From Erysipelotrichales bacterium (lineage in GTDB: Bacteria; Bacillota_I; Bacilli_A; RF39; UBA660): a stretch of DNA of 42,943 nucleotides. The stretch covers positions 1 through 42,943 of the forward strand of contig JAFLUY010000004.1 in NCBI GenBank assembly GCA_022508565.1. The letters run 5' to 3'. Below are positions 3,493-37,770 of this stretch, in pieces (the stretch's first letter is position 1; every line of letters begins with the position of its first letter). The position numbers were made by a program, and so were the translations under genes. Below the pieces are notes generated by a model. The model searched no databases. It had not been told where the DNA came from and saw only the letters and a list, made by a program, of their open reading frames with translations.

Positions 3493-6400
3493 ATGGCAAT
3501 TCCTATAGCGTTTCAGCAATTCAAAAGTGCCGGAGTATACCGCCTCGTTTATGATAAGTCCAATATTATTGGAGTCGATGCGTCAACTCTTCGTTTAGTT
3601 GTTGGTTATTCTCCTAAAGGTCCTTTCAATGTACCTGCTTACGTTACTAGTATTTCTCAGTTCCGTGAACTTTATGGTACAGCATCGAAAACTCTCGAAA
3701 AGAGAGGTTGCTATTTCCATCGTATTGCCGAACAATGCTTAATGGATTCCGCAATTCTTTGCTTGAATCTTAAGAAGTTCGCTAACGAAACGGTTAATGC
3801 TTCTACGATCGATACTAATTTTAATGTAAAGAATCCTATTGATACTATCGAAGTATCTGTTGAAGATATTTATGATACTACTCGTTTTTGGACTCTTTCA
3901 TCTGATAAATTGAATGATCTTCGTGGAGCTGAATATATCAATATTGCAACTACAAATACTAAAGAAACTTCAGGTACATATTTTATCCGTAAAGCTTGTG
4001 GACCTAAAGTAAATGGTTATAATATTTCTGTTGCAGATTGGTATAAGACACTTAATAAAGATATTCCCGAATATCTCCAAGGTTATGAAACTTCTCTCAT
4101 GAGTGATTTCATGGCAGAAATCTATGTATTTAAAGGAAAATTCATAGCAGAACAAGTTCTTGCTTCTGAAGCCCTTCGTCCTTATTTCCAAATCGATAAG
4201 AAAGGCAATCTCGCATTGCGTCCTTATATTGTAGATGCTTTTGGAGATTATAGTGATACTCTTGATGAATTATTTATGAATGAATCGAGTGGTGCTCTTG
4301 GTCACTATGTAGGATCTTTGATTCCTTATTTCACCGATTCTAATGGCTCTTATGCGGCTCTTGATATTCTTTTCAATCTTGATCAGGATATTCACAATAT
4401 GATGATGAGCTTCAATACTGATATGCTTGAAGAAGAAGGTATTGCTAATATCGATCTTTCTGGTTCACGTTATATTGCTACTGCTGCAGATTGTCTTAAT
4501 GATCATTCTTTAGCAAATACTTATAAAGCTTACGGATCTTCTGTAGTTTGTATTGATGATATTTGGAATGGTACTGCTAAGACTAATCTCCTTTCTAATG
4601 CTAATTCTCCTGTCGTTGCCGATATTATTCTTTTTAATCCTTCAGTATTTAAAGATAAAAAAGAAGTTAATGGTGAAGAAATCGGTATCGTTAAGACTCC
4701 TCTTAAATATAAGAAATCTAAGAAAGTTTCTGGTACTCTTTATGTAAGCGGATACGACGAAAATACTATTACACTCAAACAAATCGGTGCAATAGATCTT
4801 GAAGCTGCTCAAAGAGACTATAACGATTTTAAAGATTCTGAAGAAGGCAAACTTATTGATAAAGTAGCTGAACTTGATGAGCAATATAAAGAGGCCAAAG
4901 TAGAATATGATAAAGATACTGAAGTATTAGAAGAAGCTCAGAAGGAATATAAAGCAGCTGAAGACGAATATAAAGTAGTCGAAGACGAATATACAAATAA
5001 CGATGCTGTAAAAGAAGCTTTACAAGCTGATTCTGATTTTAATGCCGGAATTATTGGTGAAGAAGAATATCATCAAGCTGTAACTAATAATGAAGCATTC
5101 CAAGAAGCTCAGAAAAAATTCCAAGAAGCTCATGAAACATTTGAAAATGCTGAAAGTACATGGAATGATGCTAGACAAGCTTATTGGGATAAATATGGTA
5201 AATATAATGAAGAAACTGGAGAGCTTGAATCAGAAGGTAACAGCGATTTCTATAAGGCTTCAAAAGAATTAGAACCTTATCAACCAAATGGAGAACTTTA
5301 TAATGATTATCTCGAAGCCGTAGAGGCATTCAAACCAATTGAAGAGGCTTTACAAGAAGCCCAAGAACAAGAAGATATCATTGTTGAGTTAAATGATCCT
5401 GAAGATCTCGGTTATGTACTTTATCAATTAGGCGCCGCTTATATGGATAATATTACTGATCCTGATAATGTACAATATATTCCTTACGGAAAATATGAAT
5501 TTGTTGGTAAAACATATCCTACTGAAGCTGGTACATTAAAAGGAGATGGTTTAGGTACTTATTATACAGGTAAGAATCCTTATGAAACTTATCATTCTTT
5601 AGAAGGTCCTAAGAAAATCATCACTTCAATCAACCGTGATATGGACGCTGAAGATAATATCATCAAACTTTCTGGAAAAATAATTAAGGCAGCAGTTGAA
5701 GAAGTATATATTCAAACTTCACTTGAATATTGTGCTCCTAAAATGATTATCGAAAGCGAAGACGGAACAACTGAAGAAGTGGTTGATATTGAAAACAGTG
5801 TTCTTATCGAAGAAGATGATCTTTCTTCTAGCTGGAATGTATATGGTTCTTCTATATCATTTATCCAATGTTTACCTGAATGGGGAATCTATAAAGATGT
5901 TAATAAATATACGGCAGATCCTGATGACGTACATACTTATACTATGTATGCGAAAGCTTCTGATAACTCCGCACTTCTTTCTGTAATTACTAAAGGAGAT
6001 CGTTTCTTAGCAGGAGATGCTACTGTTGATATGGATGGAGATAATGATTATGAAGACGAAGTTCAAAATGGATTTTATGATGTAGTTGCTGTTCAGAGTG
6101 TTGAAACTAAATTTGACAAATATGGGGTACCTTTGTATCATGAAATCAAATTCACTGGTAAGCCGATGTTATTTGAAGCATCAAAGAATGGTATTTCTGA
6201 AACTGTAAATTCAGATGATAATACTCCTGAATATGTTCAAAATAATATCTTTGGTGCATCTGCTAAAGACGAAATCAAGACTTATTTAGTGCGTATAGAT
6301 AAACCACTTAATCAAGAAATTGGTACTATGTACCCAACTTATCTTGAAGGTTATACTTATGAAAATCCGAAACCTAATGGAACTGGTATGATGGCTAAAT

Positions 6401-7374
6401 TAAATTGGCAAAAATTCATGCTTGGCGCATTAGATGAATACCAAGGACTTCGTACTGCTCTTTTAAATAAGTCCGAAATCGATTTCCGTTATATCATCGA
6501 TACTTGGGAAACATTCGTAGATTCTTCTATTAAGTCTACTTTCTCACAACTTTGTAAAGATAAAGAATCAGCATTTGCGATTCTTAACTTCCCAGCTATT
6601 CGTACATTTGTTAAATGTCCTTATGCTTCTTTCACAAATGATAGAGGTGTATTCAACATTCAATATGTAGTAGATGGTAAGAATAAGAAGAAAGCATCTT
6701 CAACTACGTTCAGCTTACCTACTGAAACTGAAGGAGCTTCATACTGTGCATTCTATACTCCTCTCAGATTCTCTGACGGATATGTAGATTCATATATTCC
6801 TTCAGCAGGTCTTGTATCTAATCTATTTATGGAGAAATATCGTAGTCGTCAGCCTTATTTCATCATCGCCGGTCCTAATTCTGGAGCTATTTCTGCTGCA
6901 GGTCTTGTAGGCCCTGACTACAACTATTCTCGTGAAGAATTGAATATTATTGAACCTTATGGAGTCAACTGTATGGTTTATCGTTCCGGATTTGGTACAT
7001 TTATCAATGCTAACCAAACTGCTAAACAAACTCCGAAGTCAGCATTATCTTCAATTAATGTTCGTGAATTAGTTATCTATCTCATGGATGAAATTGAAAA
7101 TGTACTTCAAGCATATCAATGGGAATTCAATAATGCTCAGGTACGTGCCGCTATTAAAGATCGTGCAGATGCAATTTGTACAAGAGTACAAGTAAATGGA
7201 GGTCTCCAAGCATTCCTCAATGTTATGGATGAATCTAACAATGATAATGATATCATCGATAACGAATTTGCTGTACTTAGTACTTATATTGAACCAGGCC
7301 GCGGAATGGGTAAGATGGTACATGAACTTACTATCCATCGTTCCGGAGGAATGTCCTCAACTACTATCGATTAA
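3493..7374 (+). CDS. Contractile tail sheath protein (T4 gp18 type) with a large insertion
   Basis: The N-terminus (FQQFKSAGVYRLVYDKS, then a segment like LRLVVGYSPKGPFNVP) and the C-terminal third (about residues 960-1293, including SYIPSAGLVSNLFMEKYRSR and a final basic strand region) are typical of T4-like sheath subunits. At 1293 residues it is about twice the length of T4 gp18. Much of the extra length is an insertion at about residues 437-640 made of long Glu/Lys/Ala-rich heptads (for example LEEAQKEYKAAEDEYKVVED), predicted to be coiled coil, followed by further inserted domains up to about residue 930. The subunits form the contracting sheath around the tail tube; the insertions should project from the outside. 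It has its own leader and is followed by a hairpin at 7396-7428, then the tube gene. Confidence 0.92.
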   Translation: MAIPIAFQQFKSAGVYRLVYDKSNIIGVDASTLRLVVGYSPKGPFNVPAYVTSISQFRELYGTASKTLEKRGCYFHRIAEQCLMDSAILCLNLKKFANETVNASTIDTNFNVKNPIDTIEVSVEDIYDTTRFWTLSSDKLNDLRGAEYINIATTNTKETSGTYFIRKACGPKVNGYNISVADWYKTLNKDIPEYLQGYETSLMSDFMAEIYVFKGKFIAEQVLASEALRPYFQIDKKGNLALRPYIVDAFGDYSDTLDELFMNESSGALGHYVGSLIPYFTDSNGSYAALDILFNLDQDIHNMMMSFNTDMLEEEGIANIDLSGSRYIATAADCLNDHSLANTYKAYGSSVVCIDDIWNGTAKTNLLSNANSPVVADIILFNPSVFKDKKEVNGEEIGIVKTPLKYKKSKKVSGTLYVSGYDENTITLKQIGAIDLEAAQRDYNDFKDSEEGKLIDKVAELDEQYKEAKVEYDKDTEVLEEAQKEYKAAEDEYKVVEDEYTNNDAVKEALQADSDFNAGIIGEEEYHQAVTNNEAFQEAQKKFQEAHETFENAESTWNDARQAYWDKYGKYNEETGELESEGNSDFYKASKELEPYQPNGELYNDYLEAVEAFKPIEEALQEAQEQEDIIVELNDPEDLGYVLYQLGAAYMDNITDPDNVQYIPYGKYEFVGKTYPTEAGTLKGDGLGTYYTGKNPYETYHSLEGPKKIITSINRDMDAEDNIIKLSGKIIKAAVEEVYIQTSLEYCAPKMIIESEDGTTEEVVDIENSVLIEEDDLSSSWNVYGSSISFIQCLPEWGIYKDVNKYTADPDDVHTYTMYAKASDNSALLSVITKGDRFLAGDATVDMDGDNDYEDEVQNGFYDVVAVQSVETKFDKYGVPLYHEIKFTGKPMLFEASKNGISETVNSDDNTPEYVQNNIFGASAKDEIKTYLVRIDKPLNQEIGTMYPTYLEGYTYENPKPNGTGMMAKLNWQKFMLGALDEYQGLRTALLNKSEIDFRYIIDTWETFVDSSIKSTFSQLCKDKESAFAILNFPAIRTFVKCPYASFTNDRGVFNIQYVVDGKNKKKASSTTFSLPTETEGASYCAFYTPLRFSDGYVDSYIPSAGLVSNLFMEKYRSRQPYFIIAGPNSGAISAAGLVGPDYNYSREELNIIEPYGVNCMVYRSGFGTFINANQTAKQTPKSALSSINVRELVIYLMDEIENVLQAYQWEFNNAQVRAAIKDRADAICTRVQVNGGLQAFLNVMDESNNDNDIIDNEFAVLSTYIEPGRGMGKMVHELTIHRSGGMSSTTID

Positions 7375-8240: not shown

Positions 8241-9299
8241 ATGGACGACAAAACAATTATACAAAACTATTTGAAGTTTAAGAAAGATAAAGAATCACAA
8301 AACAAACCATCATCAGAATCTAAATATTTAATTTCAAAAATTATTTCTAAAGAAGAAAAAGAATATATTAAAAATCGATGGACTGACTCTTCTTCGGATT
8401 ATGAATCGTTATATAGAATTGTACATAATATCCAAGAAAGACATAGATGTCCTGTTTGTGGCAAATTTACTGAGTTTGTAAATAAAAATGATCAAATATA
8501 TCGTAGATATTGTTCTTGGGAATGCAAAAAGAAAAATACAAATATGGCTGAAAGACATAAACAAGGATGTCTAAAGAAATATGGAGTTGAAAATATTTCA
8601 CAAGTAGAATCAATAAAAGAACAGAAAAAACAAACTTTTTTAAGGCATTATGGTACCGAAAATAACTTTGGGCGACCAGAAGTTACTAAAACTATTTTAG
8701 ATAAATATGGAGTTGATAATATCCAAAAATTATCCGAAATAAAAGAAAAGGTTAAACAAACTTGTCTGAAAAAATATGGATATACATCTTTTATAGCGAT
8801 TCCAGAAGAACGAGAAAAATGGAAAGAGTCAAATAAAGAAAAAGAATATATCACTAAAAAGAAAAACGGTACATTAGGAAAATCTTTAATAGAAATCGAA
8901 CATTTTAAATTATTAAAAAATATTTTTCCTAATACAATTCATCAATACAGAGAAAAAGAACGATATCCATTTAATTGTGATTTATATGTTCCGGAATTAG
9001 ATTTATTTATTGAACTTAATTATTATTATACTCATCAAGAAACTTTTTTTGATAAAAATAATCCTGAACATATAGAAAGATTAAATCATTTAAAAGAACT
9101 TACAAAAAATGGTATTAATAGACAAGGAGTAATCGATACTTGGGCTGATAGAGACCTTTTAAAAAGAAAAACTGCAAAAAATAATAAATTAAATTATTTA
9201 GCTTTTTTTAATAAACAAGATTTTATTATTTGGATTAATGAAATCAAAAAATATAATAATATAAATGAAATTCCAAAAAAATTATTAATTAATATATGA
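8241..9299 (+). CDS. Free-standing homing endonuclease (zinc finger, KYG repeats, EDxHD-like nuclease domain)
   Basis: Residues about 70-100 hold a four-Cys zinc-binding pattern (CPVCGK ... CSWECKKK). Then come several copies of a short helix repeat with the core TCLKKYGVEN, probably DNA-contacting. The C-terminal part (about residues 215-350) has CDLYVPELDLFIELNYYYTH followed later by a W/D-R-K-T segment, matching the Vsr-like EDxHD homing nuclease fold. The gene at 29458 is a clear paralogue. Such enzymes cut DNA to copy themselves into related genomes. It sits where T4-like phages usually have the portal gene, and its stop overlaps the aroB start (ATGA), so aroB translation may be coupled to it. 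Confidence 0.8.
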   Translation: MDDKTIIQNYLKFKKDKESQNKPSSESKYLISKIISKEEKEYIKNRWTDSSSDYESLYRIVHNIQERHRCPVCGKFTEFVNKNDQIYRRYCSWECKKKNTNMAERHKQGCLKKYGVENISQVESIKEQKKQTFLRHYGTENNFGRPEVTKTILDKYGVDNIQKLSEIKEKVKQTCLKKYGYTSFIAIPEEREKWKESNKEKEYITKKKNGTLGKSLIEIEHFKLLKNIFPNTIHQYREKERYPFNCDLYVPELDLFIELNYYYTHQETFFDKNNPEHIERLNHLKELTKNGINRQGVIDTWADRDLLKRKTAKNNKLNYLAFFNKQDFIIWINEIKKYNNINEIPKKLLINI

Positions 9300-10330
9300 C
9301 ACAAAACATAATTATAGCAAAAAATCTTAAAGAATCACTAAAAGGAATTTTAAATAATTTAAAATGTGATAATCCTTTTGTATTGTGTGATGAAAATACT
9401 GTCAAGTATATTGATGAATTAGGATTAGATAATAAAACGATTATAACCATAAATTCTGGTGAATCAAATAAAAATTTAGAAACTGCTTGTAAAATATGGA
9501 ACCAATTAGATAATTTAAACGTTAATAGGAATTCTATATTGATTAATTTTGGAGGAGGAATGATTAGTGATATTGGAGGATTTTGTGCTTCAGTATATAA
9601 AAGAGGAATAAGATTTATCAATATACCTACAACTCTTTTAGGAGCAGTAGACGCTTCAATCGGTGGCAAAAACGGAATAGATTTCGAAAATAATAAAAAT
9701 GAAATAGGCACATTCAATCTTCCTTATTGTACAATAATTTCAAAGATATTTTATAAAACTCTATCAAAAGAAGAATTATTATCAGGATATGGAGAAATGA
9801 TTAAACACTCCATATTATTTGATAAAGAAGAATTTTTTAAATTATTAAAATATGACATAACAAAATATGATGATCGACTTATTTCATTCATCAAAAATAG
9901 TGTCAAATATAAAGATAAAATTGTTAGCGAAGATTTTAAAGAAAATTCAAAACGTAAATTATTGAATTTTGGACATACAATAGGCCACGCAATAGAATCT
10001 TATCAGTTAGAAATTTCTAAACCTTTATATCATGGATATTGTGTAGTATATGGAATATTATTGGAAATGATTATATCAAATTTATTATATGATTTCTCAA
10101 TGGAAATTATAGATGAATTTTCAAAATATATAAAGAAAAATTATGGTTCTTATATAATAGATAATCCAAAAGAAATCATATCAAGATTAATAAAAGATAA
10201 AAAGAATAAAGATGATTCTAAAATAAATTTCACTTTAATCGATAAAGATTTCAATCCAATAATCGATAATTATTTAGATAAAGATATTTTAGAAATGATA
10301 GAAATATTCAATCAAAAAATGAAAAAATAA
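9296..10330 (+). CDS. aroB: 3-dehydroquinate synthase (shikimate pathway step 2)
   Basis: The 344-residue protein has all landmark motifs of AroB. They are the NAD-binding GGGMISDIGGF (86-96), the segment PTTLLGAVDASIGGKNGID (111-129), and the three zinc ligands Glu167 (SGYGEMIKHS), His227 (LNFGHTIGH) and His246 (HGYCVVYG). Length matches bacterial AroB. The enzyme converts 3-deoxy-arabino-heptulosonate 7-phosphate to 3-dehydroquinate. Related sugar-phosphate cyclases such as 2-deoxy-scyllo-inosose synthase share the fold, but the presence of aroA and aroK elsewhere in the window favours true AroB. The start overlaps the endonuclease stop by four bases. It is followed by a perfect 21-bp hairpin and converges on a minus-strand gene. 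Its base composition is like that of its neighbours, so the transfer is probably not recent. Confidence 0.9.
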   Translation: MTQNIIIAKNLKESLKGILNNLKCDNPFVLCDENTVKYIDELGLDNKTIITINSGESNKNLETACKIWNQLDNLNVNRNSILINFGGGMISDIGGFCASVYKRGIRFINIPTTLLGAVDASIGGKNGIDFENNKNEIGTFNLPYCTIISKIFYKTLSKEELLSGYGEMIKHSILFDKEEFFKLLKYDITKYDDRLISFIKNSVKYKDKIVSEDFKENSKRKLLNFGHTIGHAIESYQLEISKPLYHGYCVVYGILLEMIISNLLYDFSMEIIDEFSKYIKKNYGSYIIDNPKEIISRLIKDKKNKDDSKINFTLIDKDFNPIIDNYLDKDILEMIEIFNQKMKK

Positions 10331-19160: not shown

Positions 19161-19469
19161 ATGAAAAAAATTACTGAATATATATTAGAGAATTATAGAT
19201 TTTCTAAAATTTCATTAGACGAATCTTATATTGATAAGAATAATGTAAAAAGGGCTATTGATGAATTGAAGGCTGAAGCGGAAAAGAAAAATCTTAAAGT
19301 AGTTTTTCGTGATCGAAAAACAAATCAAGGAGATTTCTGTATTTTCATTTATTCTGATCGTCAGAAAAGATATCATGTAGGTTTTAATGGAGATTGGAAC
19401 GATAAAAGTGAATATAGCTTTGAAACTTGTTTGACAGATGCCAAGAAATGGATTGAAGATTTTAAATAA
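19161..19469 (+). CDS. Unknown protein with a capsid-targeting-like N-terminus
   Basis: The first ten residues, MKKITEYILE, fit the pattern of the T4 capsid-targeting peptide (MKTYQEFIAE): Lys2, Glu6, aromatic 7, Ile8 and Glu10, with the head-protease cleavage pattern I-x-E at 8-10. The rest (102 residues in all) is a small alpha/beta-looking domain with a long charged helix (about 28-45) and strands such as DFCIFIYSD and YHVGFNGDW. It is the last gene before a bidirectional terminator. I infer that it is packed in the head and trimmed after Glu10. The function of the mature domain is unknown. Confidence 0.7.
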   Translation: MKKITEYILENYRFSKISLDESYIDKNNVKRAIDELKAEAEKKNLKVVFRDRKTNQGDFCIFIYSDRQKRYHVGFNGDWNDKSEYSFETCLTDAKKWIEDFK

Positions 19470-23626: not shown

Positions 23627-23910
23627 CTTTTTTCATTAAAATTTTTTATATTCAAAAATTTTTATTATTTTTGTATTGTCATACAAAAACATACTTTCTA
23701 TAAGAAATTCATTTTTATAATGAAATTTTATCGACTAATACAAAAACTATTTTTAAATATATGATAAAAATAGAATTTCATAATAAAAAAATTCAATAAT
23801 TTTTTGAAATTTTTTAGAATGATTCTATGTTTTAATAGAATTGATTGGAATTATTAAATTTCATATCATAAATTATTATAAGATAGAAAATTAAACAATA
23901 AATATTTAAA
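23627..23910. promoter_or_regulatory. Divergent intergenic region with an inverted repeat
   Basis: This AT-rich, gene-free stretch lies between the minus-strand block and the sigma-factor gene. It contains a 19-base imperfect inverted repeat (23712-23730 against 23771-23789, core TTTTTATAATGAAATT / AATTTCATAATAAAAA), and a match to the Bacteroidetes -7 consensus TAnnTTTG (TATTTTTG at 23666-23673), though no convincing -33 partner is visible. Divergent promoters are expected here. An origin or operator is possible. Confidence 0.4.
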
Positions 23911-25185
23911 ATGAAAAAATTATCACAATTAATTAACGAAGCAAAACAAGGACTTAATCTCCAAGAAGGTACAGTAAATTACGTAAACAAATCAGATCTC
24001 GAAAAATATCTAGAGATTTGTAAAAATTTCATCAATGATGATGCCAAATATGTAGTTGGTTGGCTTATTGAACATAATGATACTTATGTAAAAGATTTGA
24101 CTGCTCCTTCAGGTTCCGTAAATAATGCTTTAGCTGATTTTTATAATGCAGGAGTTCCTAAAGATCAAAATATGAAAGAGCTTTATAAAAGAATTGGTTT
24201 GTTGAATAAAGCAGGACTTATTCTTCAAATTCCTGTATTTCAGACTAAAGATCAACTTGAAGGAATTCTTGACAAAAAAGTAGCACCCGATGAAGTATTC
24301 CTAGATCTTACTTCAGAAAAGGGACGTAATGAAGTTGCCAAAAAATATAATGCTTTAGTTTGGAAGATTGTTCGTTCATTCAAAGGAAAATCTAATTTTA
24401 CTTTAGATGAACTTTATTCAATAGGACTTGAAGGTCTTACATGGGCGATGAACAATTATGGAAAATCTCATGTAGAGACTCAGAAAAAGAAAACTGCAAA
24501 TAAAGAGGATAGCGAACTCGATGAAATATTGAATTCTGAAAAGGAAAAAGCACGTAAACAATATACTTTTATAAAATACGCTGGATATTTTATCCGTATC
24601 GCAATACTTGAAGCTATTAAGAATGAATCTCATCTAGTACGTATTCCGGTATCTCAGCAAAATAGAGAACGTAAAGAAACTGGTAAAAATACTAAATCTA
24701 TGTCGATTTCCGGAGAAACTTCGATATCTAAAGATAAAGAAGGAAATTCTAAATCTTTATTTGATACTATTTCTGGTTCTGAAAATGGACATAAAAATAT
24801 GGATCAAGAAGATATTGATAAACTTTGGACAGATGCTAAAAAGATTCTCGATAAGAAATTTACAGACCGTCAAATGGGCATCTTTACGGATTTCTTAGGA
24901 GTATTTGGTAAAGAAAGTATGTCTGGTAAAGAAGTAATGAAGAAATATGGACTTAAAAATCAGAGTGAGATATCGAATAACAATTCAAAGATTAAATCAT
25001 TCATGATGAAAGATCCTAAACTTAGTAAGATACTTAGAGAAATATATACTCTTTATGCAGAATCTAGAAATGAAAATGATGATGAAGCATATAGTCCTAT
25101 ATATCTAGATAAAAATGTTAATGGGATAGTTGAAAAAGAATTAGAAGAACAAAATAGATATCCTGAAAAAGAAATAGATTTCTAA
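23911..25185 (+). CDS. Sigma-70 family factor with a capsid-targeting-like N-terminus
   Basis: Residues 1-10 are MKKLSQLINE followed by Ala, matching the T4 capsid-targeting peptide and its cleavage rule I-x-E|A. Sigma region 2 covers about 140-235, with NALVWKIVRSFKG, LDELYSIGLEGLTWAMNNYG and FIKYAGYFIRIAILEAIKNE, the last resembling the -10 recognition helix. A region 3-like basic stretch (HLVRIPVSQQNRERKETG) follows, and a C-terminal region 4-like segment (about 310-390) has FTDRQMGIFTDFLGV and KYGLKNQSEISNNNSKIK. It should direct host RNA polymerase to phage promoters. The N-terminal peptide suggests it is packed in the head and injected with DNA. It heads a cluster of four genes whose products carry such peptides. 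Confidence 0.82.
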   Translation: MKKLSQLINEAKQGLNLQEGTVNYVNKSDLEKYLEICKNFINDDAKYVVGWLIEHNDTYVKDLTAPSGSVNNALADFYNAGVPKDQNMKELYKRIGLLNKAGLILQIPVFQTKDQLEGILDKKVAPDEVFLDLTSEKGRNEVAKKYNALVWKIVRSFKGKSNFTLDELYSIGLEGLTWAMNNYGKSHVETQKKKTANKEDSELDEILNSEKEKARKQYTFIKYAGYFIRIAILEAIKNESHLVRIPVSQQNRERKETGKNTKSMSISGETSISKDKEGNSKSLFDTISGSENGHKNMDQEDIDKLWTDAKKILDKKFTDRQMGIFTDFLGVFGKESMSGKEVMKKYGLKNQSEISNNNSKIKSFMMKDPKLSKILREIYTLYAESRNENDDEAYSPIYLDKNVNGIVEKELEEQNRYPEKEIDF

Positions 25186-25193
25186 ATCTAAAT

Positions 25194-25529
25194 ATGGTAT
25201 CATTACAAAATTTCATAGTTACCGAATCTTTAGATTCTGAAATGCTTTATTGGAAAATGAATACATGGTATATGGGTAGAGAGGATGAATTGAATTCTTT
25301 CTATTCTATGATGAATGTACTTGCGAATTCTCCGGCGGTAACTTTAAAAGATTTTGAAAAAGTATTAAAAGATTATAATTTAGATTGGAAACAATTTGTA
25401 CAATTCGCTATAGATAATGTAGATGGTACTATTGAATTTGATCAATTATATACGATGAAAAAAATCGTAGATATTTTACTAGCGAATAAAAATTATAAAT
25501 GGGACCTTAAAGATGAAAAGTCTATCTGA
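25194..25529 (+). CDS. Unknown protein with a variant capsid-targeting-like N-terminus
   Basis: The start MVSLQNFIVTE is close to the ten-residue peptide on neighbouring proteins (Phe7, Ile8, acidic residue) but has Val2 and one extra residue before Glu, giving V-T-E|S. The rest of the 111 residues is helical, with FEKVLKDYNLDWKQFVQFAI in the middle. It starts 8 bases after the sigma-factor stop and overlaps the next gene by 17 bases, so the three are co-expressed. The head-packaging idea is weaker here than for its neighbours. Confidence 0.65.
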   Translation: MVSLQNFIVTESLDSEMLYWKMNTWYMGREDELNSFYSMMNVLANSPAVTLKDFEKVLKDYNLDWKQFVQFAIDNVDGTIEFDQLYTMKKIVDILLANKNYKWDLKDEKSI

Positions 25530-26037
25530 ATTCATTCGAGAAAAATTAGAAGGAAATGATTTTATAGAAATATCTGATTTAGAAGTTATATATATTCCAG
25601 ATACTGAAAATTTATTAGTTCAAGTACCTAATAACTATAATGAAGATAATATTCACATGTATTTAGATGATTCATGTATGCCCGATATGCCTTCAGATCC
25701 TAAAAATATTGGAGAATTATTTGGAAGTGATAACTCTAAAAATCTTTCTGATGCATATTTCCAATATGAAGATTTGACTTTACCAGAAGATTCTACGACT
25801 AAGCCCCAAATCGAATGGAACAAAAGATATGATAATCATGAGGATAGAAATGCTGAATTGATAGTATATTCATTAAATAATTTTGAATATCATATATTAT
25901 TTGAAAAATTTGAAATCAATAATAGAGAGAATTTAGAATTAGAAAAAATATTAGAAGATTTATTTACTGCAGCAGAATCTAATAAAATTCATCCTTGGGC
26001 GTTTCCTATAAAACTTAAAGAGATTAATTTTAAATAA
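25513..26037 (+). CDS. Unknown protein with a capsid-targeting-like N-terminus
   Basis: The start MKSLSEFIRE is the closest match in the window to T4's MKTYQEFIAE: Lys2, Ser3, Glu6, Phe7, Ile8 and Glu10, with I-R-E as the cleavage site. The 174-residue remainder is acidic and has no recognised domain. Strands alternate with Asp/Glu-rich loops (for example LEVIYIPDTENLLVQVPNNY). It overlaps the preceding gene by 17 bases. Its position right behind the sigma factor suggests a helper that travels with it, for example an RNA polymerase- or host-targeting effector, but this is inference. Confidence 0.7.
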   Translation: MKSLSEFIREKLEGNDFIEISDLEVIYIPDTENLLVQVPNNYNEDNIHMYLDDSCMPDMPSDPKNIGELFGSDNSKNLSDAYFQYEDLTLPEDSTTKPQIEWNKRYDNHEDRNAELIVYSLNNFEYHILFEKFEINNRENLELEKILEDLFTAAESNKIHPWAFPIKLKEINFK

Positions 26038-26764: not shown

Positions 26765-27181
26765 TTATTTTCCCTTAAAACAAATTTTAGATTCTCTTTC
26801 AACATTTTCTAATGAATCACTAGAATGCATTGCGTTTTTCATATCATCTTTTGACCAATCGGCTCGAATTTTATCTTTAAAAATATCCATATCTTTAATA
26901 GGATCTATACATTTTTTATATATGGTCATACAAATACAATCTCCAGAAGACATATAGTCACAAAGAGTTTGATAAAAAGATTTATCTTGTTGTCCTTCAT
27001 ATAATTCTTCTGCTTGCTTTCTAGATAATCTTATTGTTTTTGAATTTAAAATTTTCCAATCGTTTAATTTTAAAAGTCTTCTAAATTCTTCTTCATATTC
27101 TAAAAATCCCGGTTTTAAAATTACAAACCCATTAGGTTTTTGTTGAGATGATTCGTAAATGAATTGTACAATAGATTTCAT
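26765..27181 (-). CDS. ndk: Nucleoside diphosphate kinase with a capsid-targeting-like N-terminal extension
   Basis: From residue 19 the protein follows the NDK fold: FVILKPG (the F-x-x-IKP motif), the Kpn-loop region RLSRKQAEELYEGQQDKSFY, DYMSSGDCI, and the C-terminal DKIRADW ... NAMHSSDSLEN. The catalytic His is at 119, and the Arg106 and Ser/Asp neighbours are kept. The enzyme moves phosphate from ATP to other nucleoside diphosphates. Ahead of the domain is an extra MKSIVQFIYE then SSQQKP, which matches the T4 capsid-targeting peptide (I-Y-E cleavage site). That extension is not part of normal NDKs, whose IKP motif starts near residue 6-10. I infer that it is packed into the head. It is on the opposite strand to, and convergent with, the sigma-factor cluster. 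Confidence 0.85.
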   Translation of the reverse strand: MKSIVQFIYESSQQKPNGFVILKPGFLEYEEEFRRLLKLNDWKILNSKTIRLSRKQAEELYEGQQDKSFYQTLCDYMSSGDCICMTIYKKCIDPIKDMDIFKDKIRADWSKDDMKNAMHSSDSLENVERESKICFKGK

Positions 27182-27250: not shown

Positions 27251-28315
27251 ATGAATATTAAATTAGGTCCTAGTAAATCTTCTTGTGCAAGATATATTAT
27301 TGATTCGTATGTAAATAATAATGAAATCAATCCATCTTTATTATCATCGTGTGATGATACTCAAACTTTATTGAAATATGTGAATCAAAAATCTGGTATA
27401 GTAGACATCGGACCTTCCGGAACTTCGATGAGATTTCTTATGGCTTTATATGCTTCAGATCCGAATTGCAATATAATATTAACAGGTTCTGAAAGAATGC
27501 TTCAACGTCCTATGCAACAATTTATTGATATGTTGATTTCAATGGGAGCTGATATCAGAGAAATCAGACAAGGTTGGAAAATTATAGGAAAACAATTATA
27601 TGGTACCATCATCGATTGCTCGAAATTAAAATCTTCGCAATTTGCTTCAGCAATACTATTAATTGAACCAAGACTTAAAGGAAAAGTAATATTAGAAAAT
27701 TTTGATAATTGTACATCAAAAAAATATTTACAACATACAATTGATTTTCTTAAGAATAAAAATATAGAACCTGATTGGTCAGCATTAAGCTTTATATATA
27801 GTTATATCATCACTCACCATAAAGAGGAAATTACTATAAACAATTATAAGATAAATTCATTCACTATTGAATTAGCAGAATTAGCCGAACAATATGGAGT
27901 AATTACTAAGATTGATGAAGAAAATAATAGAGCTTATATTTCTTGTATGCCTTGGCACGATGATTGTATATTTAAAGACTTTTCGAATATTCCTGATGAA
28001 ATCCCTGCATTCGTCGTTGCATCAGTCTATGTAAATATACCTTTTAAATTTACTGGATGTGAAACTTTAAAGAATAAAGAATGTGATCGATTAGCTGTAT
28101 TGAAAGAAAATTTAAATGATAATATAATATTTGATGAAAAATCTGTAGAAAGTAACTATAATTCTTATGTAAGAAAAAATTTAATCAAAACTTATAATGA
28201 CCATCGGATTGCAATGGCTTTTGCTTCATGTGGTATACTTAAATCTCAAATAGAAAATCCTGATGTAGTCAATAAGTCATGGCCCGAGTTTTGGAAAGAA
28301 TTTAATTTAGATTAG
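27251..28315 (+). CDS. aroA: 5-enolpyruvylshikimate-3-phosphate synthase (shikimate pathway step 6)
   Basis: All active-site landmarks of AroA are present: GPSKSS with Lys9, SGTSMRFL (56-63), LTGSERMLQRPM (77-88), SSQFASA (128-134), the catalytic Asp249 in NIPDEIPAF, Glu277 in KNKECDRL, NDHRIAM (316-322) and the C-terminal Lys342 in VNKSWPEFW. The enzyme joins phosphoenolpyruvate to shikimate 3-phosphate. Motifs such as SCDDT and DWSALSF resemble those of Bacteroidetes AroA proteins. At 354 residues it is about 70 shorter than usual, with loops lost, notably ahead of DWSA. The following gene begins 2 bases after its stop, and aroK follows that, so this is an aro operon. Confidence 0.92.
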   Translation: MNIKLGPSKSSCARYIIDSYVNNNEINPSLLSSCDDTQTLLKYVNQKSGIVDIGPSGTSMRFLMALYASDPNCNIILTGSERMLQRPMQQFIDMLISMGADIREIRQGWKIIGKQLYGTIIDCSKLKSSQFASAILLIEPRLKGKVILENFDNCTSKKYLQHTIDFLKNKNIEPDWSALSFIYSYIITHHKEEITINNYKINSFTIELAELAEQYGVITKIDEENNRAYISCMPWHDDCIFKDFSNIPDEIPAFVVASVYVNIPFKFTGCETLKNKECDRLAVLKENLNDNIIFDEKSVESNYNSYVRKNLIKTYNDHRIAMAFASCGILKSQIENPDVVNKSWPEFWKEFNLD

Positions 28316-28317
28316 TG

Positions 28318-28596
28318 ATGGAAGATAAAGAAAAAATAAAACAGATTCTTGATTTAATAGATTCTCTAGAAAAAGAAGATGAAATTGTTTTCCTAGATGT
28401 AGACACCTTTAGATCTTGTAATATCGAAAATATGTTAAATCAATCAATAGAAAGTATTTTATATGATTTGAATAGAGGTCCCGAAGTATTGAAAACTCTT
28501 ATGAATTTAGATGAAAATAAATGGTGTATTAATGATATTGCATTAGTAATATTATTTAAAAGAGTTTTTAAGAAATTACAAGAATATGAAAAATAA
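28318..28596 (+). CDS. Small acidic protein inside the aro operon
   Basis: The ATG at 28318 is chosen over a GTG at 28315 that overlaps the aroA stop. The 92-residue product is acidic at the start (MEDKEKIKQILDLIDSLEKE) and helical, with no recognised motif. It overlaps aroK by 11 bases, so its expression is tied to both shikimate genes. It may be an accessory or regulator, or simply a passenger. Confidence 0.65.
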   Translation: MEDKEKIKQILDLIDSLEKEDEIVFLDVDTFRSCNIENMLNQSIESILYDLNRGPEVLKTLMNLDENKWCINDIALVILFKRVFKKLQEYEK

Positions 28597-29077
28597 CAAT
28601 ATAATATATCTTATCGGAATGCCTGGTTCTGGCAAGACTTATTTAGGTAAAAAACTTGCAAATATTTTTGGATATCATTTTATCGATTTAGATTTTTATA
28701 TCGAAACTAAAGAAAACAAGACAATAGAAGAAATAATATCCGAAAATTCAGAAAGCTATTTTAGAAATTTAGAAAGAGAGCATCTTTTAAATTTAGCAGT
28801 AGATAAAGTTATTGTAGATAAAGTTATTAATAATCAAAAAATCATAATATCATGTGGAGGTGGATTGCCTTGTTATTTTGATAATATCAATTTACTGAAA
28901 TTTTCCGGTAAAGTTATTTATTTAGATACTTCATTATGGAAAATTTATAAAAGATGTTTGAAAAGCAATCGGCGTCCATTATTTAAGAATAAAATTACAT
29001 TATTTTTTAAACTATTAAAAACTAAAAAGAAAAGATTACCTTATTATTTACAAGCAGATTATACAATTAAATTATGA
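28586..29077 (+). CDS. aroK: Shikimate kinase (shikimate pathway step 5)
   Basis: The 163-residue protein has the complete shikimate kinase signature: Walker A GMPGSGKT (11-18), the shikimate-binding FIDLDFYIE (32-40) with Asp34, Arg60 in SYFRNLE, GGGLP (91-95), the lid NRRPLF (128-133) and the late RLPYYLQAD (150-158) with Arg150. The enzyme phosphorylates shikimate with ATP, giving the substrate for AroA, whose gene is just upstream. Length matches the family. It overlaps the genes on both sides (11 bases before, 4 bases after), showing a tightly packed operon. Confidence 0.92.
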   Translation: MKNNNIIYLIGMPGSGKTYLGKKLANIFGYHFIDLDFYIETKENKTIEEIISENSESYFRNLEREHLLNLAVDKVIVDKVINNQKIIISCGGGLPCYFDNINLLKFSGKVIYLDTSLWKIYKRCLKSNRRPLFKNKITLFFKLLKTKKKRLPYYLQADYTIKL

Positions 29078-29457: not shown

Positions 29458-30879
29458 ATGGGCCGTAAAATTATTTATAAAAAATTAGAGGATATTACAG
29501 ATGAATATATTATAGAAAAATTTTGGAAAGGTAAATCCTCAACATTTACTAGACAAAATAATTGTGGACATGTATCAGAAGATGAATTGAAATATTTAAA
29601 TAATCGATTTAAAGATTCTACAGGACCAGAAGAAACTATATATAGAATAAAAAATAAAATATTCGAAAGGCCAAAATGTCCAATTTGTGGAGGATCTATT
29701 GAATATCGTAAATACGGAGGATTTAAACAATATTGTTCAAGAGTTTGTGCAAATAAAAGAGAAGGTTTTAAAGAGCAAAGAGAAAAAACTTGTTTAGAGA
29801 GATATGGAACTTATAATGTCCTTACTTTAGATAAAATCAGAAAAAAATCAATTAAATTAGCTCATACTGAATCCGCAAAAGAAAAACGTAAACAAACTTG
29901 TTTAAAAAAATATGGTTCTCCAACCCCAATGACTACCAAAGAAGGTATTGAAAAATCTAAAGCTTCTAGAAATACTAAAGAAGTAAAAGATAAAATTCGT
30001 AAAACATGTTTAGAGAGATATGGAGTAACTACACCTATAATACAAAAAGAAATATTAGAAAAAGCTATTAAAAATAGTCATACTCCAGAAGCAGATAAGA
30101 AACGTAAAGAATCTATGATGAATAGATATGGAGTTGAATATTCAATGCAAATTCCTGAAATATTAAAAAAGTGTCAAGCGACTAATAATACTCCGTCGGC
30201 CAAAAGAAAACGAGAAGAAACGAATCTTAAAAGATATGGTTATAAATATACTTGCCAAAATCCTGTAAAACAGAAAAAAGCAAATGAATCTTCCCAAACT
30301 CCAGAAGCAATAGCTAAAAGAGTGAAAACAAATTTAGAAAGGTTTGGAGAAAATAATTATGGTAATAGAGAAAAAGCTAAACAAACATGGTTAGATAAAT
30401 ATGGAGTACCTCATCATCGTATGACAAAAGAAGCAAAGGAACATATGTCTGAAGTTATGAGTGATCCATTATTACAAAATCGTAGATATAATAAAATGAA
30501 AGAAAATAATTCTTTTAATATATCTAAACCAGAAGATGAAACTTATAATTTATTAAAAGAAAAATTTATAGAGGTAATAAGAGAATATAAATCGGAATTA
30601 TATAATTATTCTTGTGATTTTTATATTCCTTATTTAGATCTATATATCGAATGTAATTACCATTGGACACACGGAAATCGTCCATATAGAGAAAATTCTA
30701 AAGAAGATTTAGAAATTTTAGAAAAATGGAAATCTAAAAATACTAAATTTTATAATAAAGCTATAGAAGTATGGACTATTAAAGATGTTAATAAACGAAA
30801 TACAGCAAAAGAAAATAACTTAAATTGGATAGAATTTTTTAATATAAAAGATTTTAAAAAATGGTTTGAAGATCAATAA
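29458..30879 (+). CDS. Free-standing homing endonuclease next to the split DNA polymerase
   Basis: The 473-residue protein is a longer paralogue of the one at 8241. It has a zinc-binding motif (CPICGG ... CSRVCANK, about residues 75-98), then about eight copies of a helix repeat with the core TCLERYG or NLKRYG, spaced 20-30 residues apart. The C-terminal nuclease domain (about 355-473) has CDFYIPYLDLYIECNYHWTH, then EVWTIKDVNKRNTAKEN. The repeats probably read the target DNA along the major groove and the end domain cuts. It lies 42 bases before the polymerase fragment, the arrangement seen where homing enzymes have split replication genes in T4-like phages. Confidence 0.82.
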   Translation: MGRKIIYKKLEDITDEYIIEKFWKGKSSTFTRQNNCGHVSEDELKYLNNRFKDSTGPEETIYRIKNKIFERPKCPICGGSIEYRKYGGFKQYCSRVCANKREGFKEQREKTCLERYGTYNVLTLDKIRKKSIKLAHTESAKEKRKQTCLKKYGSPTPMTTKEGIEKSKASRNTKEVKDKIRKTCLERYGVTTPIIQKEILEKAIKNSHTPEADKKRKESMMNRYGVEYSMQIPEILKKCQATNNTPSAKRKREETNLKRYGYKYTCQNPVKQKKANESSQTPEAIAKRVKTNLERFGENNYGNREKAKQTWLDKYGVPHHRMTKEAKEHMSEVMSDPLLQNRRYNKMKENNSFNISKPEDETYNLLKEKFIEVIREYKSELYNYSCDFYIPYLDLYIECNYHWTHGNRPYRENSKEDLEILEKWKSKNTKFYNKAIEVWTIKDVNKRNTAKENNLNWIEFFNIKDFKKWFEDQ

Positions 30880-30921: not shown

Positions 30922-32187
30922 ATGTCTAAATTTAGTGAAAATGTTGAAAAATGGTTTAATGAAAATTGGCCTGAAATAAAAGTTGAAAATATAGATAATT
31001 TATCATTAGATAAACTTAAAATATTAAAAGAAGAAGTAGTCGCGGCTAGACAGCAAGTTAGATGCGTTGAAGACGCATACAAGGCGGGAGCCAATAGTGC
31101 TTACGGAGCATGTGCTAATCCTGGTTTTTATTTCTTTAACCAAGCTTTAGCCGGCGACATAACAGGAGAATGTCGAGCATTGACTAAATTCATGGTAGAT
31201 AAAGGAGAAGATTTTTTTCATAAAGAAATTTGGGATAGAAAAGATCTATGGAAAAAATATGATATAGATTTAGATGAGTCTAAAAAAGAATGGTACCAAA
31301 ATAAACCTGTTTGGATTTACAGTGATACCGATTCTTGTTATTATCAGTATGGAGATTTTTTTAAATGTATGACAGAAGATTGGCATAAACGTTATCCTAA
31401 TATGAGAGATAAAATAATGTGGATGGTTAAATTTAATCAAGAATTTATGGATAACCAAAATAAAGAATGGATAGATGACATGTATAAAAAACGTAATGGT
31501 AATTCTGTGCATCTTTTTGAGACCGAACTCGTTTCTCATAGTGAAATAAATCTCCAAAAAAAGAAATATATGAAGAATGTCATTTGGGAGAAAGGTAAGC
31601 TATATGATCATCCAAAAACTAAAGGAACCGGTATTGAATTGATTAAGTCAACTACTCCACCACTTTGTAAAGAGATCTTGACAAAACTTATCAATTTTCT
31701 TATCTATGAATATTCAGAAATGGGACATACTGAATTTATATATTTCTTCGCGGATAAATTGATGGAATTTAAGAAACAATTTTATGCAGCGCCTATCGAT
31801 GAGATCTCTCAAAGTATTGGGGTAAACGGATATCAGAAATATGTAATTAATGACGAAACCGCTCTCGAATTTCGTCCGCATGCTACTCCAGGAGTAAAAG
31901 GATGTGCAAGATATAATTATTTAGCTCATAAAGCAGGAGCTGATGATAAGAGGATATATAGTGGTAAAATGAAATATTATAATATTAGGATAAATGATAA
32001 GACTACTGATTTCTTTGCGTATCCATTCGGAGAATGTCCTGATTGGGCACCTAAAATCGATTTGCCAACGCAATGGGAAAAAACTATCATAACTCCAATA
32101 AATAGATTCCTAGAAGTTATGAAAATTCCGAAAGCTAATATTGGAGGAATTGAGATAGGATTATTTATGGATGAAGATTTTGGATAA
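30922..32187 (+). CDS. C-terminal half of a split family B DNA polymerase (T4 gp43 type)
   Basis: This 421-residue protein holds only the later polymerase motifs. Motif B is DAYKAGANSAYGACAN (51-66), motif C is YSDTDS (133-138) with the two catalytic Asp residues, the KKKY thumb motif is in LQKKKYMKNV, and GTGIELIKSTTPPLCKEIL follows, as in T4 gp43. The exonuclease domain and motif A are absent from this protein and from every other gene in the window. The break therefore lies between motifs A and B. The N-terminal half should be encoded elsewhere and must assemble with this one to give an active enzyme. The first 45 residues look like a linker. A homing endonuclease is directly upstream and a strong terminator directly downstream. 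Confidence 0.88.
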   Translation: MSKFSENVEKWFNENWPEIKVENIDNLSLDKLKILKEEVVAARQQVRCVEDAYKAGANSAYGACANPGFYFFNQALAGDITGECRALTKFMVDKGEDFFHKEIWDRKDLWKKYDIDLDESKKEWYQNKPVWIYSDTDSCYYQYGDFFKCMTEDWHKRYPNMRDKIMWMVKFNQEFMDNQNKEWIDDMYKKRNGNSVHLFETELVSHSEINLQKKKYMKNVIWEKGKLYDHPKTKGTGIELIKSTTPPLCKEILTKLINFLIYEYSEMGHTEFIYFFADKLMEFKKQFYAAPIDEISQSIGVNGYQKYVINDETALEFRPHATPGVKGCARYNYLAHKAGADDKRIYSGKMKYYNIRINDKTTDFFAYPFGECPDWAPKIDLPTQWEKTIITPINRFLEVMKIPKANIGGIEIGLFMDEDFG

Positions 32188-32253: not shown

Positions 32254-32940
32254 ATGAAAAGTTTTTTAGAATGCCTTAAAGAAAATAATATAATAACCAT
32301 AACAGAACTTTATCAATATGAAAATGAAATTTTAGGACAAAGGATAGATGAAAGTTTATGGTCTTGGTTAAAAAATCTTTGGAATAAAGTTTTTAAAACT
32401 GCTGATAAAAATTTAAAAGTAAACAAAGGAGAATATATTATTCCAAAATCATTGAGCAATGATATTGAAGATGGAATTATAAATATTAATTCTATTACTG
32501 TGGCGGATATGCCAGAAAGTAATTTTTTAAAATTTATAAAAAAGACTAATTCAGAAAATCCAAAAGGACAATTTTATAATGCTTATCAATATTATAAAAA
32601 CCATTTAAACAATTCAAAAAATTCAAAATCATTTTTAGATAAAGCTAAACAAAAATTAGGATCTAAAGGAGAATTATTGACAAAACCTTATATTTTAATG
32701 GTTTCTACTAAAAAGGATAAAAAAGATAAAGAAGCATCCTTAGTTGTTGGTTTTTATTTTTTGAAGATTGAAAAAGAAAAAGAATCATTAGTAGCATACC
32801 CAATGAAATATATACCAATAAATTCGATTCAAAAACCTTCGGAAGGATTTATTAGTATAGTAAATAAATTAACTTCTAAATTATTAGAAAATAAACGTAA
32901 AAATGTAAAGTTTATTGATAAAGAATATGATGAAAATTGA
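32254..32940 (+). CDS. Unknown basic protein with a capsid-targeting-like N-terminus
   Basis: The start MKSFLECLKE fits the ten-residue pattern (Lys2, Ser3, Glu6, Leu8, Glu10; L-K-E cleavage site). The remainder of the 228 residues is lysine-rich overall, with a central region of Asn/Lys-rich helices (AYQYYKNHLNNSKNSKSFLD) and a strand-rich part (KPYILMVSTKKD, ASLVVGFYFLKIE). A basic, head-packed protein would fit a DNA-binding or internal-protein role. The function is not known. It stands alone after the polymerase terminator. Confidence 0.68.
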   Translation: MKSFLECLKENNIITITELYQYENEILGQRIDESLWSWLKNLWNKVFKTADKNLKVNKGEYIIPKSLSNDIEDGIININSITVADMPESNFLKFIKKTNSENPKGQFYNAYQYYKNHLNNSKNSKSFLDKAKQKLGSKGELLTKPYILMVSTKKDKKDKEASLVVGFYFLKIEKEKESLVAYPMKYIPINSIQKPSEGFISIVNKLTSKLLENKRKNVKFIDKEYDEN

Positions 32941-36528: not shown

Positions 36529-37770
36529 ATGCCTAGAATTAAAGTTGTCTTAAATAAGACAAATACACAAAAGTTAAATAAATTTTTTAAATGGGCCCAG
36601 GAAAATTGGCCGAATGTAGATAATACTGAGTTAAGCGAATTTTTAATTGAGAAGATTAAAAATGAGATAAAAAATCTAATGAAAGATTGTTCTGAAAAGA
36701 TGATCATTGAAGTCTGGATAGAAAAATTGAAAAAATCCAGAATTCCATTAGATATAAAAGATTTTAAGGAAAATATTATAGAAAATCTTAAAATTGCAGT
36801 AAGAACTAAATTAGCAGGGATATATACTAACAAATCATTTGATAATAATATTGATATATATTTTAATGAAGTAAAGAGAGAATATATACTCCATCCACAA
36901 TCAGAATCAGATGAATTAGAATTTTTACCAGAAAATAGAGATGTATTCATCAAAAATAATCTCAAATTAGTAGTAAATTGCGCAAAACGATATCAAAATT
37001 TAGGATTACCGTTTGAAGATTTAATACAAGCCGGTAATGAAGGATTATTAGCAGCATTCGATAATTTTAAAACCGATAGAGCTAATCTTAGGAATGCTAT
37101 TATTGAGGATATAAAAAATGAAGAAATTGAAAACTTTACATATGAAGAAAGTGAAAGAATAGTCAAACATAGATTTATATATGGGAAATTATTAGATCAA
37201 ACTCTTAAAAAACTTCCACAAACAGGATTTGAATCAAAACAAGAATTTATCAATTGGGCTAAATTAAATATTAAAGGAGCAGTATTTGCTTCAGTGGCAT
37301 TTCAGTGGATACGTTCGGCGATCATCATGGAAATTACAAAATCCGGAAATGTCATTAAAATGCCTAAGAAATCAAAAACCGATGATGATGAAAAGGGCTC
37401 TAATATAGCAAAAATAATTAGATTAGATAGCATCAATCCATATACTGATGATAATTATTCTGATGCTGATTTATCGATTATTGCAAATGAAGAATTCATT
37501 ATTGAAGACCAAGCTATCGAAAAAGTAGAAAAACAACAAACTTTAAGACCTGTTATCGAAGAGATGTTAAGTTGTTTAGATTTATTAGATCGAAAAGTTA
37601 TTAAAAGAAAATATGGAATTGGATATCCTTATGCTATGACGATTAATGAAATATCTGAAGCCGAATCGATTTCAGTTGGTCAAGTGAAAAGAATTCTTAG
37701 AGATTCTATGTTAGTATTACAACAAAACTTAAATGATAATCAAAAAAGAATGTTAGCAGAAATTTTATGA
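36529..37770 (+). CDS. Second sigma-70 family factor, without a capsid-targeting peptide
   Basis: Sigma region 2 spans about residues 142-285: NNLKLVVNCAKRYQNLGLPF then EDLIQAGNEGLLAAFDNF, and SVAFQWIRSAIIMEITKSGN as the -10 recognition helix. A region 3/4 part follows, with LLDRKVIKRKYGI and a helix-turn-helix TINEISEAESISVGQVKRIL (about 375-395). An extra 60-residue segment splits region 2 (about 180-250). The N-terminus (MPRIKVVLNK) has no head-packaging peptide, so this factor should be made after infection and may drive middle or late genes. The start of the next gene overlaps its stop by four bases. Confidence 0.87.
   Translation: MPRIKVVLNKTNTQKLNKFFKWAQENWPNVDNTELSEFLIEKIKNEIKNLMKDCSEKMIIEVWIEKLKKSRIPLDIKDFKENIIENLKIAVRTKLAGIYTNKSFDNNIDIYFNEVKREYILHPQSESDELEFLPENRDVFIKNNLKLVVNCAKRYQNLGLPFEDLIQAGNEGLLAAFDNFKTDRANLRNAIIEDIKNEEIENFTYEESERIVKHRFIYGKLLDQTLKKLPQTGFESKQEFINWAKLNIKGAVFASVAFQWIRSAIIMEITKSGNVIKMPKKSKTDDDEKGSNIAKIIRLDSINPYTDDNYSDADLSIIANEEFIIEDQAIEKVEKQQTLRPVIEEMLSCLDLLDRKVIKRKYGIGYPYAMTINEISEAESISVGQVKRILRDSMLVLQQNLNDNQKRMLAEIL

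Follow-up and report, generated by a model that had tools for sequence, protein, structure and literature searches.

Why should a phage sigma factor begin with a peptide that reads like an address to the phage head? The question arises at positions 23911-25185 of the window, by which we mean the whole stretch of DNA analysed (42,943 nt), corresponding to bases 1-42943 of a 132,922-nt contig (C32) that lies within a 1.69-Mb bacterial bin. An earlier note had described the product as a sigma-70 family protein starting with MKKLSQLINE|A, and both points were borne out. The ORF occupies exactly 23911-25185 on the forward strand, with no other start codon between the preceding stop and its own, and the 424-aa product has the N-terminus MKKLSQLINEAKQGL, with MKKLSQLINE|A as the tag. 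The protein matched PHROG_351, 'RNA polymerase sigma factor', over residues 135-414 (E 8.9e-13), and all ten of its NCBIfam matches were to sigma families, falling on regions 2.1-2.2 (residues 135-186) and 2.3-2.4 (residues 205-251). Furthermore, when it was aligned with other phage sigmas, region 2 was followed in order by the region 4 HTH.

23911-25185, forward strand: sigma-70 family protein of 424 aa with an N-terminal capsid-targeting-like tag (ORF, PHROG, NCBIfam)
23911-23940, forward strand: tag MKKLSQLINE, ten codons, with INE|A as the site at which the head protease is predicted to cut, behind codon 10 (tag scoring); the tag-bearing N-terminal segment of the sigma factor is MKKLSQLINEAK
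24313-24660, forward strand: sigma region 2, residues about 135-250 (YNALVWKIVRSF..DELYSIGLEGL..YTFIKYAGYFIRIAILEAIKNESHLVRIPV; PHROG, alignment, NCBIfam)
24808-25050, forward strand: sigma region 4, C-terminal HTH, residues about 300-380 (PHROG, alignment, structure model)
36529-37770, forward strand: second sigma-70 family protein, 413 aa, untagged (Pfam 1e-8, TIGR02937 3e-21)

Unlike the second sigma of the window, which is easily recognised, the tagged one is invisible to Pfam alone. A PDB sequence search returned sigma chains as its only matches, all of them weak, and neither the viral and genome contigs nor the annotated phages nor 385 genomes of the order contained a close homologue. 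A single-sequence AlphaFold2 model was poor (mean pLDDT 38), residues about 300-380 being its sole moderate part (pLDDT ~70-80). As judged from its sequence, the product is a divergent sigma-70 family protein. This divergence, together with a novel N-terminal domain of ~120 aa, an insert of ~35 aa that interrupts region 2 and weak matches to the curated sigma models, would suit an injected effector derived from a sigma factor, with the task of blocking or sequestering the host RNA polymerase and not of starting phage promoters. We regard such a role as very improbable, since regions 2.1-2.4, a 3.2-like region and region 4 are all recognisable in order and since the phage-specific promoters described below require a reader.

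The tag is shared by ~70 of ~427 phage genes versus none of 570 bin genes, totals that are approximate because genes were called with a simple longest-ORF script. A position-specific score was built from the tags on contigs C32 and C36 and applied leave-one-out; 25 genes of these two contigs outscored all 913 internal-methionine controls, and none of the 408 genes on other bin contigs passed. The sigma tag itself reached 18.3 bits when left out, versus 4.2 bits for the best of the 913 control starts, taken from the same contigs, and 4.6 bits for the best of those 408 genes. Contigs outside the score-building set (C2, C11, C13, C16, C19 and C37) added 45 tagged genes, with C11 alone bearing tags on 18 of its 37 genes, and eleven further bin contigs, with 162 genes, had none. 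At the DNA level, a degenerate tag pattern gave 37 matches in the whole bin, all on phage contigs, and its reversed control gave none; a search of viral contigs with exact DNA patterns of the tag brought up no relatives. The conservation of the tag is at the protein level: identity at codon positions 1 and 2 is 0.72 and 0.80, versus 0.53 at position 3, its Ser, Leu and Ile residues are encoded by many synonymous codons, and the flanks show background identity.

Across the 70 tags, position 4 is L in 59, position 7 is F or Y in 63, position 8 is I and position 10 is E in 56 each, and position 11 is S or A in 35. The exact (I/L)xE|A site is present in 12 tagged proteins, and the (I/L)xE site is missing from some others. 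The sigma tag has Leu at positions 4 and 7, the latter usually being Phe/Tyr in the set, which speaks against its packaging, and its positions 8-10 plus 11, I-N-E|A, fit the (L/I)-x-E site of the gp21 type. In several tagged proteins (C32 19161, C2 (L220:10728), C11 730 and C19 523) a second short block, FSKISLxES/EA, comes right after the tag and may form with it a longer propeptide that is cleaved at a second site too. Beyond the sigma gene, four more genes of the window are tagged:

19161-19469, forward strand: tagged protein MKKITEYILEN..., 102 aa, no assigned function (tag score)
25513-26037, forward strand: tagged protein MKSLSEFIREK..., 174 aa, no assigned function (tag score)
26765-27181, reverse strand: tagged nucleoside diphosphate kinase, MKSIVQFIYES (PF00334 9.1e-21, tag score)
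32254-32940, forward strand: tagged protein MKSFLECLKEN..., 228 aa, weaker tag of 6.3 bits (tag score)

In the kinase, the NDK domain begins at residue 18 and the tag is an added N-terminal extension of ~11 aa. The ORF at 25194 (MVSLQNFIVTES) looks tag-like by eye, but it scored at background level and was excluded from the count.

The phage to which these genes belong is a fragmented megaphage that makes up ~370 kb of the 1.69-Mb bin. Its contigs were recognised by the tag (C2, C11, C13, C16, C19, C32, C36 and C37) or by head genes (gp23 on C22, E 1.3e-30, and the start of an S77 protease at the end of C36), and, because they share the tag and their head genes are complementary, we infer that they come from one phage. 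Its place in a clade was given by the tail sheath protein:

3493-7374, forward strand: tail sheath protein, clade-placing (profile and homology search)

Sheath, tube and DNA polymerase are 25-35% identical to members of a clade that includes the Prevotella Lak phages, uncultured 'huge phages' of 462-735 kb, Sphingomonas phage PAU and jumbo phages of Tenacibaculum and Chryseobacterium. The true host is uncertain, because the relatives with a named host mostly infect Bacteroidota and the promoters of the bin are of the TGnTATAAT type.

It has been described for phage T4 that the first ten residues of the capsid-targeting sequence (CTS) suffice for packaging, that its positions 4 and 7 serve in targeting and positions 8 and 10 in processing, and that gp21 cleaves after L/I-x-E (PMC9026906). 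The positions conserved in the tag (4, 7, 8 and 10) are these functional positions, and the N-terminus of T4 IPIII, as read from its sequence record, is MKTYQEFIAEAS (MKTYQEFIAE|A). The bin and each of the ten relatives searched gave matches to the gp21-family (S77) protease and to gp23; for the protease, the match in the bin is a truncated fragment at the end of C36 (E 1.9e-4, below the curated cut-off). The relatives have tags too. In PAU, MKTLSKLYE|A (pattern MKTLxxLYE|A) is present in 17 genes versus none of 898 controls, and it is concentrated in the head module around the head protease, where it marks 13 of the 37 genes; of the 248 genes outside this module, 4 have it (Fisher p=6e-10). 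LR756500 has MKYIKEYEEFLxE in 28 genes versus 1 of 1219 controls, and Lak-A1 has KKALYESIM..SK.VK..INE in about nine. The MA9V-2 tag is MKTFTYFINE|A, with one tagged gene directly before the protease, and the capsid protein of this phage includes SEFINE|A in its own N-terminal region. The sampled parts of other huge phages gave further tag variants. Each of these related lineages appears to have a private N-terminal tag ending in a similar site.

The claim of the earlier note that the sigma peptide is capsid-targeting-like, with an I-x-E|A site, is therefore strengthened by its use across the phage on unrelated proteins, by the T4-like functional positions, by the protease and gp23 matches in the bin and in every relative searched and, among relatives, by the clustering in the PAU head module and the independently tagged Lak sigma considered below. 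The tag could instead be some other N-terminal signal, for targeting to a replication compartment or membrane, for protein turnover or for enhancing translation. The tagged proteins are in fact numerous and very diverse, some tags are devoid of the (I/L)xE site, and in the part of the proteome of jumbo phage CBB examined, a 50-kb segment, the head proteins known from mass spectrometry do not bear a tag family. We nevertheless find this explanation quite unlikely given the agreement with the T4 CTS at the positions that matter, the closeness of the PAU tags to the head protease, the occurrence of the tag's site in the capsid protein of MA9V-2 and the many intracellular enzymes of the phage that are untagged (AroA, AroB, AroK, ClpP, ClpX, an IMPDH/GMPR-like protein, RuvC and DNA polymerase). 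Packaging of the sigma factor in the phage head is, on this comparison of genes, a good deal more probable than its absence from it. The closest precedent would be the T4 internal proteins IPI, IPII and IPIII, which are packaged and ejected into the host and which, like the proteins described here, are unrelated proteins with a ten-residue N-terminal propeptide ending in (L/I)-x-E, in a phage with a protease of the gp21 family that is also found in the bin and the relatives. They differ in scale, as T4 has a handful of them versus ~70 tagged proteins predicted here from genes, and in that a sigma factor is among the latter.

A sigma factor with a tag was also found in the Lak phages, in which the gene is present in 15 of 15 genomes. 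The Lak-A1 protein begins with MRVINKKKALYNSLMEGISRSLRNTLNE|D and, even when it was left out of the Lak tag model, it still ranked 5th among 517 Lak proteins; its counterpart in the more distant relative Lak-B5 (76% identity) has KKALYESIMKSVSKTIRKKLNE|A. No tag was seen on the sigma factors looked at in PAU, PTm1, MA9V-2 and LR756500, which counts against the model proposed below. Because the Lak sigma and the one described here are tagged and those four are not, sigma tagging would seem to be a trait of some lineages, reached with two dissimilar tag sequences.

What a packaged sigma factor could do at entry depends on the promoters that it would find. TGnTATAAT was observed 44 times upstream of genes on the host contigs of the bin versus 3.6 expected (225 regions), and never in 206 phage upstream regions versus 2.4 expected, a comparison to be read considering that the true host of the phage may differ from the bin. 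Pairs of -35/-10 elements and Bacteroidota-type promoters (TTG...TAnnTTTG) were both at chance level upstream of phage genes. Instead, the phage regions are enriched in the motif CTATNTTNAA (23 observed versus 3.3 expected) and in a TTTTTATATATAA-like motif (11 versus 0.6). A search for beta' found a single RNA polymerase beta' gene in the bin, located on a host contig, and detected no phage RNA polymerase in the ~370 kb of phage sequence seen; a search for T7-like single-subunit polymerases gave no match in the phage, nor in control genomes. As the phage has its own type of promoter and no detected polymerase, and only the host core enzyme is at hand, a factor able to read these promoters would be needed at entry, and a packaged sigma would meet this need. 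Early genes with host-type promoters could also lie in the part of the genome that was not seen.

The model that we propose is as follows. MKKLSQLINE would be a CTS of the T4 type which, during head assembly, brings the sigma factor to a docking place in the prohead core, along with several dozen more of the tagged phage products. The gp21-family prohead protease would then cut after Glu10 (I-N-E|A), leaving a mature sigma of ~414 aa inside the head, to be ejected together with the DNA. Once in the cell, and ahead of all phage gene expression, regions 2 and 4 would bind the host core RNA polymerase and the sigma would direct it to phage promoters (CTATNTTNAA / TATTTTTA...TATA). All of these steps (packaging, cleavage, injection, core binding and promoter choice) are inferred, and we give this explanation as a whole a probability of about 0.6. 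Its last part, the redirection of RNA polymerase to phage promoters at the moment of entry, gains plausibility from promoters specific to the phage, from the lack of host-type ones and from the failure to detect a phage polymerase, and we see the chances for and against it as balanced.

The region upstream of the sigma gene bears on the time at which it is expressed, and it contains two candidate elements:

23747-23763, forward strand: CTATTTTTAAATATATG, a putative promoter element of the phage type, ~150 nt before the sigma gene (sequence, motif)
23822-23839, forward strand: ATTCTATGTTTTAATAGA, a second putative element of this type, 71 nt before the sigma gene (motif)

The intergenic region in which they lie (23627-23910) is unusually long and AT-rich, separates divergent genes and has several inverted-repeat-like stretches besides the two candidates. 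The upstream motifs look early or middle, as those of metabolic genes, and are not of the sheath and tail-gene type, and the leader is unusually long. An exclusively late expression of the sigma was considered and set aside, for the split in upstream motifs is suggestive but the tail-gene type is missing before this gene. The same likeness to metabolic genes would favour a sigma that is packaged without starting the infection, either loaded by virtue of its early synthesis and its tag, or acting later, for instance as a middle or late sigma replenished by newly made protein. This possibility is also in line with the second, untagged sigma of the window and with a cargo of ~70 diverse proteins, which suggests permissive loading. 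However, the lack of enriched host-type promoters and of a detected polymerase would demand a factor at time zero, and the Lak sigma is tagged independently, so we consider it unlikely, although less so than a signal unrelated to the head, and favour a packaged sigma that acts at entry.

In its broadest form, the proposal is that a megaphage delivers a promoter-specificity subunit in its virion, within a cargo of ~70 tagged proteins, and thereby switches the host core RNA polymerase to phage promoters as the DNA enters, that tags are private to each lineage, and that the sigma factor has received a tag in two lineages or more, this phage and Lak among them; we would hold this general statement and its contrary in equal regard. 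Because the sigma is one of many predicted cargoes and a second, untagged sigma is encoded in the window, it may not be the sole promoter-switching device. Among known systems, T4 Alt, a packaged and ejected ADP-ribosyltransferase, is alike in being a head-packaged protein acting on the host RNA polymerase at entry, as predicted here, but Alt modifies the polymerase, whereas the tagged sigma would supply promoter specificity. The virion RNA polymerases of phiKZ-like phages and N4 likewise bring transcription machinery in the virion for early genes; here a sigma would take the place of the polymerase, the host core would still be used and no phage beta' was found. Finally, gp55 and the RpoD-like sigmas of T4-like and jumbo phages belong to the same sigma-70 family and are thought to recruit the host RNA polymerase to phage promoters, but the sigma described here bears the head-address tag of its phage.

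In the open-access literature searched, neither a virion-packaged sigma factor nor tag families in megaphages have been reported, which is weak evidence of absence. T4-style CTS cargo is known, and what appears to be new is the presence of a sigma factor among the cargo and the far larger scale. If true, this would be a third route to control transcription before phage gene expression, beside an injected RNA polymerase (phiKZ, N4) or a polymerase-modifying enzyme (T4 Alt), and the old question of how transcription starts in giant phages with non-host promoters becomes directly testable. Moreover, a simple sequence rule, a lineage-specific N-terminal tag ending in (L/I)-x-E, would list the probable injected proteins of uncultured megaphages.

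According to this rule, the predicted cargo comprises a DNA methylase, zinc peptidases, possible ADP-ribosyltransferases, Nudix and HAD proteins and the sigma factor. Profile matches were obtained for tagged Nudix (1.1e-15), MATCAP-type zincin (6e-19) and CapA-like (8e-64) proteins, and a HAD protein and an SprT-like peptidase are also tagged. The tagged EcoRI-type adenine methylase on contig C13 (627-1445; PF13651 5.8e-44) is a candidate for an injected enzyme that would protect the DNA. Several tagged HExxH proteins were recognised by motif only, and many tagged proteins have no assigned function and were matched by none of the defence-system models. The 40-kb contig C2 (L219/L220) has several tagged zincin-like proteins (motifs HELLH, HELCH, HELMH and HELEH) in addition to a tagged MATCAP-family zinc peptidase, a CapA-like protein and other tagged genes. 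Tagged proteins of a YHxx...IxxxGI type, ADP-ribosyltransferase-like by eye, are encoded at C32 88822-89508, C11 13628-14323, and C16 4645-5514 and 5615-6883, the last being the only ADP-ribosyltransferase candidate with a Pfam hint, a weak one (Tox-ART-HYD1, E 0.015); proteins of this kind would parallel T4 Alt. On the reverse strand of C11 (229-8281) there is a dense array of short genes, nearly all of them starting with the tag, which looks like a fast-evolving island of packaged effectors.

Besides its cargo, the phage has genes for the greater part of the shikimate pathway: AroB (DHQ synthase), AroA (EPSP synthase), AroK (shikimate kinase), AroC (chorismate synthase), an AroE-like (shikimate dehydrogenase-like) protein, DAHP synthase and chorismate mutase, as found with Pfam in a survey that did not extend to 3-dehydroquinate dehydratase.

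Window 9296-10330, 27251-28315 and 28586-29077: shikimate-pathway genes (Pfam)
C36 13995-15023, 36246-36530, 42402-43124 and 62024-62812: shikimate-pathway genes (Pfam)

The ORF at 30922-32187 of the window corresponds to the C-terminal part only of a family-B DNA polymerase, and the one just upstream of it (29458-30879) has repeated KKTCLKKYG-type motifs and resembles homing-endonuclease-like ORFs.
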